Positions 527 through 50,920 of a stretch of DNA of 64,000 nucleotides are shown here, piece after piece. Each line of letters starts with the position of its first letter. The first letter of the stretch is position 1. The notes under the pieces are model-generated. The model did not search any database. It was given only the letters and a program-made list of their open reading frames with translations, and was not told the DNA's origin. Source of the stretch: Gloeobacter morelensis MG652769 (GTDB lineage Bacteria; Cyanobacteriota; Cyanobacteriia; Gloeobacterales; Gloeobacteraceae); the NCBI RefSeq assembly GCF_021018745.1, contig NZ_CP063845.1, positions 682,001-746,000 of the forward strand, given 5' to 3'. A program made the position numbers and the translations under genes.

Positions 527-1551
527 TGAACGAAAAACATTTGCAGTCGTTGCTAATTTCTCGCCTGGGCGGCGCGGCGCTCTCGGAGGAAGCGGCCCGG
601 GAACTGATGGAAGCGTGGCTGGCAGGGGAGGTGCCTGCCGCTCTCTCCGGTGCTCTGCTGGTGGCGATTGCGCCTTTGGCGATCACTGCAGGCGAACTGG
701 CGGCGATGGCCAAGACGCTGCAAGAAGCTGCGGGCGCTGCCCCCACCGGGCTGCCGGTGCTGCTCGACACCTGCGGTACCGGCGGGGATGGGCTGGGAAC
801 ATTTAATATCTCGACGGCGGTCGCCTTTGTAGCGGCGGCCTGTGGGGTACCGGTGGCCAAGCACGGTGCTCGCTCCGCCTCTAGCCGGGTCGGCTCCGCC
901 GATGTGCTGGAGCGCCTGGGAGTGCGCCTCAGCCAGGAGCGCGCGCGCGTGCGCGCCGCCCTCGACGCGGTGGGGATCACCTTTTTGTTCGCCCCGGGCT
1001 GGCACCCGGCCTTAAAAGCCGTGGCACCCGTGCGCCGCGAACTGGGCATCCGCACCGTGTTTAATTTGCTCGGTCCGCTGGTCAACCCGCTGGTGCCCAC
1101 CGCCCAGGTGCTCGGGGTCTACCATCCGCATCTGGTTGTACCGATGGCCGAAGCCCTGGAACAGTTGGGCCGCGAGCGTTTTCTAGTCGTCCACGGCAGC
1201 GGGGGGCTTGACGAGTGCTCGCTTGCGGGACCAACCACGGCAGCGGGAAATCTGAGTGGTCCCCTCTGCGAATCGCACCTGCACCCCGAAGAATTTGGCC
1301 TCGCCGCCGCCCCCCTAGAAGCGCTCGTCGGTGGGGACGTAGCGCAGAACGCCGACATCCTGCGCCGGGTGCTCCAGGGCAAAGGCAGCCGCGCCCAGCG
1401 CGACGTAGTCATCCTCAACACCGCCGCTGCCCTGGTGGCCGCCGGTGCAGTAGCAGGCTGGATGGCCGGGGTCACCCTGGCGCGCGACTGCCTGGCGGAC
1501 GGGGTTCCCTGGACCAAGTGCGAGGCGCTCATCCGCTTCGGCAATGCCTGA
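526..1551 (+). CDS. trpD: Anthranilate phosphoribosyltransferase
   Basis: Catalyses transfer of phosphoribose from PRPP to anthranilate, the second committed step of tryptophan synthesis, in the cytosol. The glycine-rich PRPP site [17 protein letters not shown] and the [18 protein letters not shown] segment are intact, and the length (about 341 residues) is normal for TrpD. A GTG three bases upstream (523) is in frame, but the ATG at 526 overlaps the stop of the upstream gene and is preferred. trpB lies 37 kb away on the other strand, so trp genes are dispersed here, as is common in cyanobacteria. Confidence 0.95.
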
Positions 1552-1604
1552 AGGCTCAGCCGGTGCGCCGCAAAATGACTCGCCCCTTGGTCAGCGCCAG
1601 CCCG

Positions 1605-2315
1605 TCAGGGTTGGTCCGGATCGACGCCGAGGGCGCGCAGGCGCTCCGTCAGGGCTGCTGCCCGCCGCTCCGCCAGCTCTGCCCGCCGTTCGGCTTGCTC
1701 GGCACGTAGTTGTTCTTGCTTCAGCCTGGCTGCGAGTTCTGCGGGGATAAGCAGTTTGTCTCCTGTGTCGAGGCGATAGAAGCCGATCAGGGCACCTTCG
1801 ACGACCAGCTGCAGGCCGAGCGGCTCGCTGGTGCCGTCAGCAATGGGTACGTAGCGACTGATTGTTTCACTCTCCTCTTCGAAGCTCCGCAGTCTGTAAC
1901 CCTGCAACTGCTCGGCTATCCACTCGCCCTTCGGGTCGAACAGCCAGTATTCTTGAACCCCCAGTCCGGCGTAGAGCGTTTTTTTCTCCCCCTGGTCTTT
2001 GCTCTGGGTGTGCTTGGAGGTGATTTCGAAGATGACAGAGGGTACCTGTCCTTCTTCCCAGGTCTTGTAATTGTCGCGTCCGCCGGGCTCGACACCGAAG
2101 ATGACCATGACATCGGGGGCAACGCGCAGGGTCGGAAAGTCCGGCGCGTAGTACAGGAACTGGTTGGCGAGGACGGTGGCCCGGGTGCCTTCGAGGTACT
2201 GCTTGAGGACTTCGAGGGTGATCAAGATGGCGTAGACATGGAGAAAGGTCTCAGCCACAGGCAGTCCATCTCCACTGGGGTAGGTGTGTGTTTTGAGAGT
2301 GCCTGTCATGGGCAA
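1605..2315 (-). CDS. Uma2 family (DUF820) putative nuclease with coiled-coil tail
   Basis: A 236-residue protein with the Uma2/DUF820 core: PDVMVIFGVEP, the acidic-lysine signature VIFEITSKHTQSKD, then GVQEYWLFDP. These match the PD-(D/E)XK restriction-like fold. The last ~40 residues are a charged heptad-like tail (EQLRAEQAERRAELAERRAA) that probably forms a coiled coil. The family is greatly expanded in cyanobacteria and its biological role is unsettled. Two more members occur in this window (12904-13452 and 26163-26972), the latter with a similar tail. It is a stand-alone gene facing trpD. Confidence 0.85.
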   Translation of the reverse strand: MPMTGTLKTHTYPSGDGLPVAETFLHVYAILITLEVLKQYLEGTRATVLANQFLYYAPDFPTLRVAPDVMVIFGVEPGGRDNYKTWEEGQVPSVIFEITSKHTQSKDQGEKKTLYAGLGVQEYWLFDPKGEWIAEQLQGYRLRSFEEESETISRYVPIADGTSEPLGLQLVVEGALIGFYRLDTGDKLLIPAELAARLKQEQLRAEQAERRAELAERRAAALTERLRALGVDPDQP

Positions 2316-2432
2316 GGCTTGGGTAGAATGACCTGTGTTGTCTATTGTCCTGTGTTGGACTTCAACCGGCTAGTTCGTGCGCTCCGGGTGTTCGGCCGGG
2401 ACTACGCGCTCGTCCTGTAGCGAAGGGCTTCT

Positions 2433-2473
2433 AAAAAAACAAAGAAAGAGGCTGCGCCGAAGCGGACGCAGCC
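2433..2473 (-). terminator. Intrinsic terminator reading on the minus strand
   Basis: GGCTGCG at 2450-2456 pairs with CGCAGCC at 2467-2473, and CCG/CGG inside extends the stem to ten base pairs with one bulged base and a short loop. On the minus strand it is followed by a T-rich run ending in seven Ts (2439-2433). No protein gene on the minus strand ends just upstream, so it most likely ends a non-coding transcript. Confidence 0.65.
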
Positions 2474-2720
2474 CGCTGGTATCCACACTGGTTGGATCGA
2501 CAGCCGCAGCCTTCGGGGGGTTCCTGGACCCGGCGCATCCCCAAGCCGGTGCCGGTATCGCCCGAAGGCTCATACCTGGACCCAAACCGCACCAAAGATA
2601 AGCAAAGCCTCGGGCAAAGTGATTGTCGATTCAGAAATTCTTTCGGCGCAGATCAAACCGTGGCGCGGCGCGCTGTCGGGGGACCGGGCTGGAAGTTGAG
2701 GGGAAGAGTCTAGTACCCTC
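2433..2720 (-). ncRNA. Candidate structured small RNA
   Basis: On the minus strand a perfect 10-bp inverted repeat (2508-2517 with 2561-2570, AGCCTTCGGG/CCCGAAGGCT) encloses a smaller 5-bp stem (2531-2535 with 2545-2549). Shorter complementary stretches lie outside it, and the intrinsic terminator at 2433-2473 follows. The 5' end is unknown; 2720 is only an outer guess. I looked for tmRNA, RNase P and SRP RNA signatures and did not find them. This is inference from structure plus a terminator without an associated gene. Confidence 0.35.
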
Positions 2721-2740
2721 TCAACGGCCGGAACGCTAAT

Positions 2741-3073
2741 ATGACCACAACCTTGAAGCGTAGGCGGAGGCAGTTCCAGATGGCCACAGCGACCCAAGCG
2801 ACCCGGGATCAGATCACGCAGTCGGTCGTCGTCGTTACCACCAAGGAGAGGCTAGATGTCAAAGCGGGGCCGGATGGTTTGCGGGTGAGCGTTGGCGGAC
2901 GCCAGGTGCGCAAAGGAGATCTGCTGGTGGCGGCGGATGGCCAGCTTCAGAAGATCGTCGGTTTTCGCCCGCGCAGCAGCAACGTGCGCGAGCTGTTCCA
3001 TACCCGCCGCGCCAACTCCTGGGATGTGGCCTGCTACTTACTCATCGAGCGGCGCTGGCCCATTGCCATCTAA
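2741..3073 (+). CDS. Small protein of unknown function
   Basis: A 110-residue frame; an internal ATG at 2780 (MATATQATRD...) gives a 97-residue alternative whose start fits better because the first 13 residues are simply basic. The middle reads like a small beta-rich domain (VDV-type strands, GGRQVRKGDLLVAADGQLQKIVGF), the end contains NSWDVACYLLIERRWPI. No family was recognised. It stands alone between a candidate non-coding RNA and a convergent DUF1995 gene, and its third-position GC resembles its neighbours, which supports it being real. Confidence 0.55.
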   Translation: MTTTLKRRRRQFQMATATQATRDQITQSVVVVTTKERLDVKAGPDGLRVSVGGRQVRKGDLLVAADGQLQKIVGFRPRSSNVRELFHTRRANSWDVACYLLIERRWPIAI

Positions 3074-3125
3074 GCCCCCACATATCTAGCGCCCTTGATT
3101 TTAAACGAGTATATCCATATCGCAT

Positions 3126-3803
3126 TTATTGGCCAAGGGCGCGCAGGAAGCGGCGCAGGCCGTCGAGCAGGGCCTCGCCTTTTTTGGGATAGAGGGCGCG
3201 GTCGATCTCTTCGCCCAGCGGGCGCGTGTCGAATTCAGCCACTTTGGTATAGTCACCTTCCTGGGTCTCGCGCCAGAGTTGCCACGGCTTCGGGTGCGCC
3301 CGGTAAAGGCTGCCCCCTTCAAAAGGCTGGATGGCATAGGCCATCTCAAAAGTCGACAAAAACCGTTCGCGCAGCTGCCTGCCCGCCAGGCCGATGCCCA
3401 CCGCCCCCGCCTCCTGCAGGCGCGAATTGAGCAAAATGAAAGGCTTGCCCGCCATGCGATCGGCGAGGGTTTCGACCGTCTCGACTTCGATAGCACTCGG
3501 CTCGACGACGAGCACGGCACGATGCTCGCCGCCGCGCAACTTCAGCTCGCTGAGACCCCGAAGGTCGTAGCCCACGCTTCCCAGGCGGCGGCGGGCCAGG
3601 GCCGCCGCGCCCGGATCGGGAAAGGCCGCCGCCCAACCGGATTCACCCAGGGCGGGAGCCAGTCCCTGTACCAGGGAGAGCACATCGAGGCCGGGCACTT
3701 TGATGTCGATTTGGGCGCGGGTTTTACCGCTTTCGAAGGTGGCTGCGAGTGCCTGGGAGCACTGCGCAAGGGTCTCATCGAGGGTGCGGGGCAGTTCGCT
3801 CAT
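3126..3803 (-). CDS. DUF1995 (LPA3-like) protein
   Basis: 225 residues from the ATG that overlaps the ispD stop (ATGA-type overlap at 3800-3803). A longer in-frame extension exists but would run back through ispD. It carries the DUF1995 pattern: an N-terminal helical part, LVVEPSAIEVETVE, KPFILLNSRLQ, RFLSTFEMAYAIQPFEGGSL and a closing VAEFDTRPLGEEIDRAL. DUF1995 proteins occur in cyanobacteria and plastids; the plant member LPA3 helps photosystem II assembly. It is third in the hpt-ispD-DUF1995 run. Confidence 0.8.
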   Translation of the reverse strand: MSELPRTLDETLAQCSQALAATFESGKTRAQIDIKVPGLDVLSLVQGLAPALGESGWAAAFPDPGAAALARRRLGSVGYDLRGLSELKLRGGEHRAVLVVEPSAIEVETVETLADRMAGKPFILLNSRLQEAGAVGIGLAGRQLRERFLSTFEMAYAIQPFEGGSLYRAHPKPWQLWRETQEGDYTKVAEFDTRPLGEEIDRALYPKKGEALLDGLRRFLRALGQ

Positions 3804-4501
3804 GGGCTGGGATCCTGGCGCAGCTGTGTTTTCAAGATAGCCTCGGCCACGAACAGATCTGCAGGCGTGGTGATCTTGAGATTGGTTTCCTCGCCGGGGA
3901 CGACCTGCACCGGCTCGCCGCGCAGTTCGCACAGCGCCGCGTCGTCGGTGACGGCGACCGCCTGGGCCGCGGCCCAGGCGTGGGCGACCTTCAGCGTCCC
4001 GACATTGCCGCCCTGGGGCGTCTGGGCCGCCCAGAGCCGCTCGCGGGCAATGGTCTTCTCTACCCGATGGCTGTGGGGATAGACCTGTTTGATGGTGTCC
4101 TTGACCGGCACAGCGGCGACGATGGCCGGAATTTCAGCGAGTGCGGCGCCACAGCGCTCAAAAAGGGCCGGGCTCGCCAGGCAGCGCGCCCCGTCGTGGA
4201 TGAGTACCTGCTGCGCGTCTGCAGGAAGCGCCAGCAGCCCCCGGTAGACCGACTGCTGACGGGTCTCGCCCCCTTCGATCCACTGCACGGGCACCCGCAG
4301 ACCCAGCTTCTCCACCAATAACCGGATCGCTTCTTCGTCTATCGGCTGGCCGATGATGCCTATCCAGCCGGTTGAAGGGGCTTTTGCCGCTGCTGCGAGC
4401 GTCCAGGCCAGAAGCGGCCGACCCAACAGCGGCAAGAGCAGCTTGTTGACGTCTGCGCCCATGCGGCTGCCGCGCCCGGCGGCGGGAATCAAAAGGTGCA
4501 T
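3800..4501 (-). CDS. ispD: 2-C-methyl-D-erythritol 4-phosphate cytidylyltransferase
   Basis: Forms CDP-methylerythritol from MEP and CTP in the non-mevalonate isoprenoid pathway. The nucleotide-binding opening LLIPAAGRGSRMGADVNKLL is present, followed by LIHDGARCLAS and VPVKDTIKQV, all diagnostic for IspD. The chosen ATG at 4501 starts right at the catalytic loop and gives 233 residues, the usual size; the frame's longer N-terminal extension would lie inside hpt. It overlaps hpt by 13 bases and the following DUF1995 gene by 4, so the three are probably co-transcribed. Confidence 0.92.
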   Translation of the reverse strand: MHLLIPAAGRGSRMGADVNKLLLPLLGRPLLAWTLAAAAKAPSTGWIGIIGQPIDEEAIRLLVEKLGLRVPVQWIEGGETRQQSVYRGLLALPADAQQVLIHDGARCLASPALFERCGAALAEIPAIVAAVPVKDTIKQVYPHSHRVEKTIARERLWAAQTPQGGNVGTLKVAHAWAAAQAVAVTDDAALCELRGEPVQVVPGEETNLKITTPADLFVAEAILKTQLRQDPSP

Positions 4502-5022
4502 TCTTCCAGTTCGCCTACGTAGGGCAACTCGCGGTAGCGCTCGGCCAGATCCATGCCGTAACCGATGACAAAGCGGTCCGCAATCGTAAAACCCCGAAAA
4601 TGGACCTCCACCGGCGCCACGCGGCGCGAAGGCTTGTCCAGCAGCGCGCAGATCTGCAGCGAGGCTGGGCCACAACCTTTGAGGGTGGCCAGGATCTGGC
4701 TTGCAGTCCTGCCGGTGTCGACAATATCTTCGAGCAACAGCAGATGATGACCGCTCAAAAAGGCCGTCTCCGGAATGTCCAGCTCCAGGCCGCCCGAAAC
4801 AGTCCCCTCGCGATAACTGCTTGCGCGCAAAAATTCGACCCGCAAAGGCACCGTCACCCGCCGCAACAGATCGGAACTGAAGACAAAGGCTCCCTTGAGC
4901 ACCGGCAAAACCACCAGCGGATACGAAATTGATACTAGAGGAGCGTAGTGGGCGCTGATCTGGCCCGCCAACAGCTGGACCTGTCTAGCTATCTCTTCTT
5001 CGGAGTACAAAATTTTGACCAC
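4489..5022 (-). CDS. hpt: Hypoxanthine phosphoribosyltransferase
   Basis: Purine salvage enzyme converting hypoxanthine or guanine plus PRPP to IMP or GMP. The PRPP-binding signature LLLEDIVDTGRTA is perfect, with LPVLKGAFVF upstream and IADRFVIGYGMDLAERYRELP at the purine-binding C-terminus. The length of 177 residues is standard. It is the first gene of a tight minus-strand run (hpt-ispD-DUF1995). Confidence 0.92.
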   Translation of the reverse strand: MVKILYSEEEIARQVQLLAGQISAHYAPLVSISYPLVVLPVLKGAFVFSSDLLRRVTVPLRVEFLRASSYREGTVSGGLELDIPETAFLSGHHLLLLEDIVDTGRTASQILATLKGCGPASLQICALLDKPSRRVAPVEVHFRGFTIADRFVIGYGMDLAERYRELPYVGELEECTF

Positions 5023-5177
5023 GGGGCGGCCTTGAGCGCAAGCCTTCTTACTTTACAGCAGCCCGTCCTTTGGCAGATCTGCCGTGTCTGAGAGAAGATC
5101 TGCGTCCCAGGATACGAAAAACTGGTCAACCCCATCGCAACTGAGGTAAAGTTTATTTAAGGAATGATGTGGAGAGT

Positions 5178-5210
5178 GCTGCGGGATCCTCCTGACCCCG
5201 CAGTTTTTTT
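5178..5210 (+). terminator. Intrinsic terminator reading on the plus strand
   Basis: CTGCGGG (5179-5185) pairs with CCCGCAG (5197-5203) and seven Ts follow (5204-5210). No plus-strand gene lies between the divergent hpt start (5022) and this hairpin, and the T run overlaps the last codons of the minus-strand gene that ends at 5209. It may end a short transcript starting near 5150 (a TAAAGT box lies at about 5148) or block antisense transcription into the next gene. Confidence 0.5.
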
Positions 5211-6477
5211 ATGCCCCGGTGCGCGGATCTTCGAGGGAGCGAAAGCGCGGATCGTCCAGTTCATAGTCGCGCTGCTCCAGGGTCGATTGCTCGGTAGTGT
5301 AAATGATGTCCTCTTTGCCGAGTACTTTTTGGGCGGCGAAACTTTGGGCGAACGCCAGTTTGCGGCGCAACTCGGCGTTCGCCTCGCGCAGGTGGCGAGC
5401 GAAGCCCGAGCGGCTGCGGTTGCGGCTTTCGACACCCCGGTTGAGCCAGGCAATGACGGCGGCGCGCACCGCCGGTACGAGCAAAAAGAGCGTGCCGTAG
5501 ACAACCAGCACCGGCGCCAAAGCGGCGAAGAAGCTCAGATCCGGCGGCAGATTGGTCGATTGCAAAAGAAAGTACAAAAACCAGGCACCCACAAAGTTGG
5601 CGACCCCGAGCGCACCGGCGAGCACCAGTTTACCGCCGGGCGCTTTGCTAAATTGCCAGCGCTTCTCCTGCAGAAAACCCGGCAACGTGGCGGCCGGCCG
5701 GCGCTCCTCGGCCTGCACCTGCAGCTGCGGAAAGCGGTAGACAATCTCGCCTTGCTCGCTCACCTCGGGCACGCCGTCGTACTTGACCAGGGCCGGCAAG
5801 ACAAAGTCTTCGCTGTCGACGCGGGCCGCTTCGAGATAGGGAGCCAACTGCTCGGCCACCACCACGCCCCGGTTGGCCTGGATAACCCCCGCCACCGTCC
5901 GCCACCGCCGCGACTCGAGATCCGCGTTCGGGTTGCCGTCGCCGAACAAAAACGAATAGACGCTCTCCAGAAAACCCATGTCCTTGGGATCTTTGAGTCG
6001 GCGCTCGTCGTAATAGCCGTAGGGGGGCCAGTAGAAGATGTAGAAAAAATCGCCCCAAAAGAAATTGGGCACGCCGCCACCGCCGCCCCGGCTTTCGCCC
6101 TCGCCGCCGCCGTCGCCGTCGCGGCTCGACAACACGACGTAGATGCCGATGGCAATGAGCACCAGCGACAAAACCAACAAGATCCCAAAAGAGATCCGCA
6201 CCAGATAGAAGGCCACCTGCCAGGCTTTTTTGAGCAGAGCTTTGAGTCTGGCGTTGCGATCCTTGCGCAGCAACCGGTCGCGCACGTCCGCTTCGAAAGC
6301 GTAAACAATCTCGCCGGTGTTGGAGACCTGCAGGTGCCCATCGCCATCCTGGGCGAGGCTGTTGAGTTCTTGCTGAACGGTAGTCAGTTCCAGGCCGCTG
6401 CGGGTCGCCACATCGCCGACGGTGGCCCGGTAGTTCAGCGTCTCAACCGCACCGAGAATCTGTTCGCGCCGCTCCAT
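5209..6477 (-). CDS. Conserved cyanobacterial/plastid membrane protein (At5g03900-like)
   Basis: 422 residues. The N-terminus (about 1-65) resembles a winged-helix-like module (VGDVATRSGLELTTVQQELNSL...GEIVYAFE), and a similar short motif recurs near the middle (VSEQGEIVYRFPQL). Between them are a transmembrane helix (GILLVLSLVLIAIGIYVVL) and an aromatic, glycine-rich linker containing FFYIFYWPPYGYYDE. Two further hydrophobic helices follow (about 285-335). This layout matches an uncharacterised membrane protein shared by cyanobacteria and chloroplasts; the function is unknown. Naming by memory of architecture, so moderate confidence in the family, high in the gene. Confidence 0.75.
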   Translation of the reverse strand: MERREQILGAVETLNYRATVGDVATRSGLELTTVQQELNSLAQDGDGHLQVSNTGEIVYAFEADVRDRLLRKDRNARLKALLKKAWQVAFYLVRISFGILLVLSLVLIAIGIYVVLSSRDGDGGGEGESRGGGGGVPNFFWGDFFYIFYWPPYGYYDERRLKDPKDMGFLESVYSFLFGDGNPNADLESRRWRTVAGVIQANRGVVVAEQLAPYLEAARVDSEDFVLPALVKYDGVPEVSEQGEIVYRFPQLQVQAEERRPAATLPGFLQEKRWQFSKAPGGKLVLAGALGVANFVGAWFLYFLLQSTNLPPDLSFFAALAPVLVVYGTLFLLVPAVRAAVIAWLNRGVESRNRSRSGFARHLREANAELRRKLAFAQSFAAQKVLGKEDIIYTTEQSTLEQRDYELDDPRFRSLEDPRTGA

Positions 6478-50769: not shown

Positions 50770-50920
50770 AGTGGATAGCAAAAGTTTGGCATTGTCATCC
50801 ACAGGTCGGGCCGGCGGGTTGTTCTCTCTTACGTCTCGCGGAAGACTCTGGCTGGCTCGACTTTTTCTTCATTTGTCCCAAGGCTCTGCGCAGCGAACCG
50901 CTGCGCAGAGCCTTGATTTT
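50770..50920 (+). ncRNA. Candidate small RNA between cysM and the M56 gene
   Basis: The promoter-like pair at 50735-50763 would start a transcript near 50770. It has a 5' hairpin (GTGGAT at 50771-50776 with ATCCAC at 50797-50802) and ends at a 16-bp terminator (50880-50914). The ~150-nt span has no convincing open frame (the one longer frame, 63 codons, has no recognisable family). This is inference from promoter, structure and terminator. Confidence 0.4.
50880..50920 (+). terminator. Strong intrinsic terminator
   Basis: A perfect 16-bp stem (50880-50895 with 50899-50914), a 3-base loop AAC and a GATTTTA tail on the plus strand. The minus strand has no T run after the hairpin, so it works mainly for plus-strand transcripts. 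Confidence 0.8.

Follow-up and report, generated by a model that had tools for sequence, protein, structure and literature searches.

Gloeobacter is a basal branch of the cyanobacteria. Among the described systems closest to the locus considered here is Yfr1, an RNA of 54–69 nt with the invariant sequence ACUCCUCACAC; in G. violaceus its gene lies between trpE and trxA (PMC2190773). A second likeness is to Yfr2 (Cyano-1), which is reported to be a cyanobacterial small RNA that ends in a terminator and carries two very conserved unpaired motifs (PMC2662882). 6S RNA (RF00013), at ~190 nt, falls in the same size class as the RNA proposed below.

We analysed a spacer within a stretch of 64,000 nt, here called the window (C1:682001–746000 of G000, a genome of 5,102,396 bp in three contigs). 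An earlier note on this DNA had placed a candidate structured non-coding RNA, with its own terminator, at 2433–2720. The spacer is flanked by a Uma2-family gene on the minus strand (1605–2309; PF05685, E 3.8e-19) and a plus-strand orphan gene (2741–3073). As the earlier note had remarked, no protein gene lies upstream: there is no same-strand gene directly upstream and the neighbour at 2741–3073 runs in the opposite direction. The relatives most used for comparison were G001, a close relative (4,659,019-bp contig) with 93.2% identity to the window over 12 kb, and G003, a distant congener (4,724,791-bp contig).

Our preferred reading, to which we assign a probability of about 0.58, is a stand-alone gene for a small non-coding RNA. 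It would be read from the minus strand, it is found only in the genus Gloeobacter, and the segment before its terminator would act by pairing or by binding protein. Like Yfr1, the proposed product is a small intergenic RNA with an invariant segment just before a G+C-rich Rho-independent terminator (PMC2190773). Unlike Yfr1, it was found in one genus only and is without ACUCCUCACAC.

Comparison with known RNA families

The earlier note had found no fit to tmRNA, RNase P or SRP, and our searches agree. No tRNA, tmRNA or Rfam model reaches its cut-off in the window: Rfam 15 gave 0 matches at the gathering cut-off in 64 kb, and ARAGORN gave 0 tRNA or tmRNA genes. At the locus itself, with E up to 10 allowed, the best Rfam hit, RT-13, reached 15.9 bits where the cut-off is 69.1. 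Two RNase P strings were also sought; one occurs three times in the window and none occurs in the candidate region. We attribute these occurrences to chance.

The candidate belongs to none of Yfr1, Yfr2 and 6S. Neither strand of the window contains the Yfr1 11-mer ACUCCUCACAC. The Yfr2 motifs GTGAGGAGT and GAGTCGAAACA, as read in the copies of G008 and G007, are likewise absent from the window. With E up to 10 allowed, scoring of 150 of the 205 candidates in G000 and 150 of the 185 in G001 gave no match to the Yfr2 model RF01701. Across the order, it was found in none of G000, G001, G002, G004 and G005 and only at chance level in G003, with 150 candidates scored in each except G002. Yfr2/Cyano-1-like RNAs do occur in other Gloeobacterales (L062 1501–1579, L064 1501–1578), above the cut-off in G008 and below it in G006 and G007. 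For 6S RNA, RF00013 has no match at the candidate locus; the single match in G000 (C1:4414700–4414893, 81.6 bits) lies elsewhere.

Among the matches listed in the literature on Gloeobacter small RNAs and transcription, we recognised no description of this RNA and no Gloeobacter transcriptome. The element is of an ordinary kind, and this RNA is a credible and modest addition that we did not find described. A small RNA confined to the genus would join the few Gloeobacter RNAs met here, namely 6S and, in print, Yfr1. If real, it would add a further lineage-specific regulator, which helps annotation but is no surprise.

Terminator and folding of the region

A strong minus-strand terminator was among the features first reported, and its presence is confirmed. 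The intrinsic-terminator hairpin, GGGCTGCGTCCGCTTCGGCGCAGCCT, runs from 2474 to 2449 on the minus strand, with a stem of 10 bp (including 7 G-C pairs) and a loop of 6 nt. A T-rich tail, CTTTCTTTGTTTTTTT, follows at 2433–2448. With both strands of the 64 kb counted, there are 26 candidates, among which the hairpin ranks joint 5th–6th by energy. In six random 64-kb Markov sequences, scanned on one strand each, there were between 1 and 11 candidates, with 0 or 1 at −18 kcal/mol or below. Within 1500–4000, terminator-like sites are not rare (1 observed, 2.2 expected from shuffles). The strongest of the 26 terminator-like sites in the window is on the plus strand at ~50877–50912, where a hairpin of −32 kcal/mol precedes a T-rich tail.

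The stems described earlier were also located. A perfect 10-bp inverted repeat, AGCCTTCGGG/CCCGAAGGCT, is formed by 2508–2517 and 2561–2570 as part of repeat I1, and the predicted fold nests a CCGGC/GCCGG stem inside it. Outer complementary stretches are found at 2452–2461/2642–2651 and at 2493–2502/2624–2633. To find two such perfect 10-bp repeats within 288 nt is unusual: the Markov mean is 0.064, and at least one was obtained in 4.5%, and at least two in 1.3%, of 2000 simulations. Folding energy, measured against dinucleotide shuffles, reveals no excess stability, with z of −0.14 for 2433–2720 and −0.49 for 2480–2640. The description of the RNA as structured is not borne out by these values.

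In one predicted fold, part of the conserved pre-terminator segment is paired. Pairing of 2452–2461 with 2642–2651 would be in competition with the terminator; G003 lacks the upstream half of this outer pair. An antiterminator, in which 2642–2651 pairs with the 3′ arm of the terminator, was considered and dropped because this stretch is missing in G003 and may precede the start site. Since folding is ordinary and terminator patterns are common, inverted repeats and a terminator prove little by themselves. Hence, conservation decides.

Conservation of the locus

In the three genomes that have them, no part of the spacer is more conserved than the terminator and the segment preceding it. A 49-nt core on the minus strand (2442–2490) is 96% identical to G003 (E 1.1e-15), while matched coding DNA nearby is only 71–80% identical between the window and G003. 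In G003, the core spans CAGTGTGGATACCAGC, the entire hairpin and the beginning of the T tract. The hairpin has the same 10-bp stem and 6-nt loop in the window, G001 and G003. Its pairing is kept throughout, with one C-G to U-G change in G003, and the first 7 nt of the tail are kept in G003 except for one C to T. A short putative GCUG/CAGC helix ahead of the terminator is invariant across the three sequences. Only two distinct core sequences exist among the three genomes, and these show 1 one-sided and 0 two-sided changes.

Within the core, a 24-nt segment, CAGTGTGGATACCAGCGGGCTGCG (2467–2490, minus strand), is invariant and comprises the pre-terminator part and the start of the hairpin. An exact copy is present in 3 of the 9 Gloeobacterales genomes; in the other 6 it was not found, even with up to 3 mismatches allowed. 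The segment is a candidate pairing (seed) or protein-binding site. It also offers a precise probe for detection of the RNA. The same three genomes score 94–99 bits with a covariance model of the 3′ part (R1). In a search of 59 genomes, the next best score is 24.2 bits (E 0.0036); it heads weak matches at E ≤ 1 in 34 other genomes, which we took as chance. The exact 22-nt pattern has 0 matches in the genome-contig and viral-contig collections, from which near relatives may be missing.

The proposed RNA body (2505–2640, minus strand), which includes the 10-bp stem, is variable and only weakly similar to G003. For 2491–2640, 61 of 500 shuffles scored as high, and for 2491–2600 the value was a borderline 16 of 500. 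The earlier note had suggested that conserved pairing in 2508–2570 be looked for in relatives. The 10-bp stem stays unchanged in G001, but nothing in G003 corresponds to it, where different 6-bp repeats are found. On this test the stem is unsupported; the pairing that is kept is that of the terminator. A non-coding RNA with its own terminator therefore stands as the best reading, with the terminator and preceding segment conserved, but the emphasis first placed on structure is unsupported.

Comparison with G001 gives a similar picture for part of the spacer. In 2433–2625, 4 of 192 aligned sites differ, plus 1 gap. The adjacent spacer, 2310–2432, differs at 21 of 123 sites (82.9% identity, 19 gap columns; Fisher p 2e-6). 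Against the same 2433–2625 interval, the spacer at 5023–5208 (32 of 186 sites differing) and the fourfold sites of eight genes (180 of 1385) give Fisher p values of 2e-7 and 5e-7, respectively. A third spacer, 3074–3125, differs at 5 of 52 sites. Taken as a whole, 2433–2740 is unexceptional, as 17% of all 308-nt intervals in the 12 kb, coding and spacer DNA taken together, have as few differences; 2.2% of 113-nt intervals are without any difference.

Upstream block and predicted start of transcription

A further conserved block, with the motif GGTTTGA.CTG, lies upstream at 2649–2723 on the minus strand. It scores 144 against G003, and 0 of 500 shuffles scored as high. The block is probably the promoter and control region of the RNA, of the divergent gene, or of both. 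In G003, the TTGA of GGTTTGA.CTG is part of a −35-like hexamer, and a scan of 401 nt found a single promoter-like site, TTGACT-16-TAAAGT, on the RNA strand. This sigma-70-like site ends 110 nt ahead of the terminator hairpin. The GGTTTGA block is kept in the window and G001. No promoter-like site was found in the 401 nt scanned in G001, and a scan of 1500–4000 in the window found no sigma-70-like site near the RNA.

In the window, the most likely start of transcription would be at ~2625–2610, past the conserved GGTTTGA block; a start near 2725 is less likely. This placement relies on position because no hexamer pair passes the scan near the block. The presumed transcript would then cross the sequence-variable body and end at the intrinsic terminator (2474–2433). 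The resulting RNA would be ~180–190 nt long in the window and ~130–140 nt long in G003.

The only minus-strand sigma-70-like sites in 1500–4000 of the window are two that overlap at 3136–3108, beyond the divergent gene. A transcript from these sites would first run antisense through the divergent orphan gene. The sites fit a different explanation, in which the terminator is an insulator that merely stops stray transcription toward Uma2 or radC, for example from 3136–3108, and the RNA has no function. Such a role would also suit an element that in each of the three genomes is divergent to the same neighbouring gene and whose RNA body is not clearly conserved. However, G003 also shows no change in the 16 nt before the hairpin, and a bare terminator needs a stem and a U tract, not sequence identity. 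Hence, we consider an insulating role unlikely, although it fares best among the alternatives.

The upstream block could instead belong to the 110-aa gene, as a control region that works at the DNA level or on the plus strand. Here, the conserved blocks and a palindrome within them would be an operator or a 5′ leader. The palindrome, TTGAG...CTCAA at 2696–2724, was read by eye and may be an operator or a 5′ hairpin. By eye, it shows a two-sided change in G003, where the outer U-A becomes C-G (CTGAG...CTCAG), and one broken pair in G001 (CCCAA). The block that carries it is conserved and adjoins the orphan gene, and the RNA and the orphan gene are both not found in G002, all of which is in keeping with a control region. 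Yet the best conserved piece of the spacer lies at a distance of ~250 nt and, read on the minus strand, is a terminator. In addition, a likely Shine–Dalgarno GGAGG before ATG 2780 and a TAATAT near 2737, both noted by eye, suggest a short leader downstream of the block. A control region alone is thus somewhat more doubtful than an insulating terminator, and we retain the stand-alone RNA.

Neighbouring genes

The orphan gene is the syntenic partner of the RNA element, which is divergent to it in the window, G001 and G003 (3 of 3). Its frame encodes 110 aa; the likely start, ATG 2780 after GGAGG, gives 97 aa. The gene is present in 4 of 291 genomes of the class searched, all from one family (genus g1 and one other genus). 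Searches of Pfam and NCBIfam with the protein gave no match above cut-off. The AlphaFold model of the 97-aa protein has a mean pLDDT of 67.3, and structural comparison of the model was uninformative, with a best Z of only 3.1. In a collection of genome contigs, the protein search found two contigs of one MAG, ES-bin-141.

The orphan gene and the RNA do not coincide everywhere. The close relative G002 is 94% identical to 3125–6284 of the window; similarity then breaks off and a carotenoid-desaturase-like gene, named from its sequence, comes next. The junction, on contig C40 of G002 (L079 ~3160), coincides with the stop codon of a gene that ends at 3126, and the RNA and orphan gene are missing beyond it. 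In the G002 draft as a whole, neither the RNA motif (up to 3 mismatches) nor the orphan gene was found. G005 has the orphan gene in two copies; a search of this genome for the 24-nt motif, allowing up to 3 mismatches, found nothing, and no similar element is visible upstream of either copy. Both genomes are drafts, 94% and 93% complete, respectively, and an assembly gap could explain the absences.

The RNA and the divergent 97-aa protein might form a two-part unit, either an RNA regulator with a dedicated binding protein or an RNA that controls its partner gene. We hold this to be quite improbable. If true, it would give an early-branching cyanobacterial lineage a regulatory system of its own, with a new conserved 24-nt motif.

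On the other side of the locus, the Uma2 gene begins ~125–145 nt past the terminator on the same strand in the window and G001. The spacer could accordingly be an attenuator leader of Uma2, riboswitch-like or with another form of conditional termination. In G003, however, the core precedes a convergent radC gene (PF04002) and no same-strand gene directly follows. Nor was any Rfam riboswitch matched. A stand-alone RNA is favoured over a leader because the gene 3′ of the terminator differs in this way, being Uma2 in two genomes and convergent radC in G003. By the same reasoning, no gene would be served in cis in G003. A leader function hence seems to us very improbable. The Uma2 gene itself is unusually close to that of G001: 2 of 123 fourfold sites differ, against 8–39% in seven other nearby genes. 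Such low divergence may reflect either recent exchange between species or strong constraint at the nucleotide level.

A small protein gene (frame ...SVDTSGLR(P/S)LRRSLFL...) is the least probable explanation, and hardly to be expected: the window, G001 and G003 all have one minus-strand frame that crosses the 49-nt core without a stop, but no start codon is common to them, loss of 1 nt near 2558 puts the upstream part out of frame in G001, the tails after the hairpin are unrelated between genomes, and the 2 core differences from G003 (P to S and one silent), although too few to judge, show no third-position bias. The earlier statement that the region has no coding frame needs qualification, as open frames of 54–75 aa cross it; none is conserved with its start and end.

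Proposed action and search for targets

In the stand-alone RNA, the conserved 3′ part would present CAGUGUGGAUACCAGC in front of the terminator hairpin, where the segment may be accessible. From there, CAGUGUGGAUACCAGC could act in trans by base pairing with mRNAs, or could bind a protein. By analogy to Yfr1, a trans-acting small RNA with its pre-terminator segment under selection is probably the simplest mode.

The 16-nt complement, with up to 3 mismatches, occurs at 31, 30 and 31 places in G000, G001 and G003, respectively, the RNA gene included. Its reversed control occurs at 12, 9 and 16 places. This excess might be real or might be an effect of composition. Gene context was checked for 30 of the 92 complement sites, and none of these 30 is a gene-start site shared by all three genomes. 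One site in G003 is 37 nt before the start of a 493-aa RND-transporter-like frame and has no equivalent in G000 or G001 among the matches listed. Core duplex energies with four neighbouring mRNAs are no better than those of shuffles (57 to 219 of 300 as low).

A site with 3 mismatches is shared by G000 and G001 (L114 and L112, ~1501–1516), 58 and 57 nt, respectively, before a 110-aa frame that by eye is of Rieske type. It has no G003 equivalent among the matches listed, and as a putative target of the RNA it is a weak lead.

A second orphan terminator was seen elsewhere in the window. It consists of GCTGCGGGATCCTCCTGACCCCGCAG followed by T7 and lies on the plus strand of 5023–5210, between the minus-strand genes 4489–5022 and 5209–6477. 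Another small RNA is possible there.
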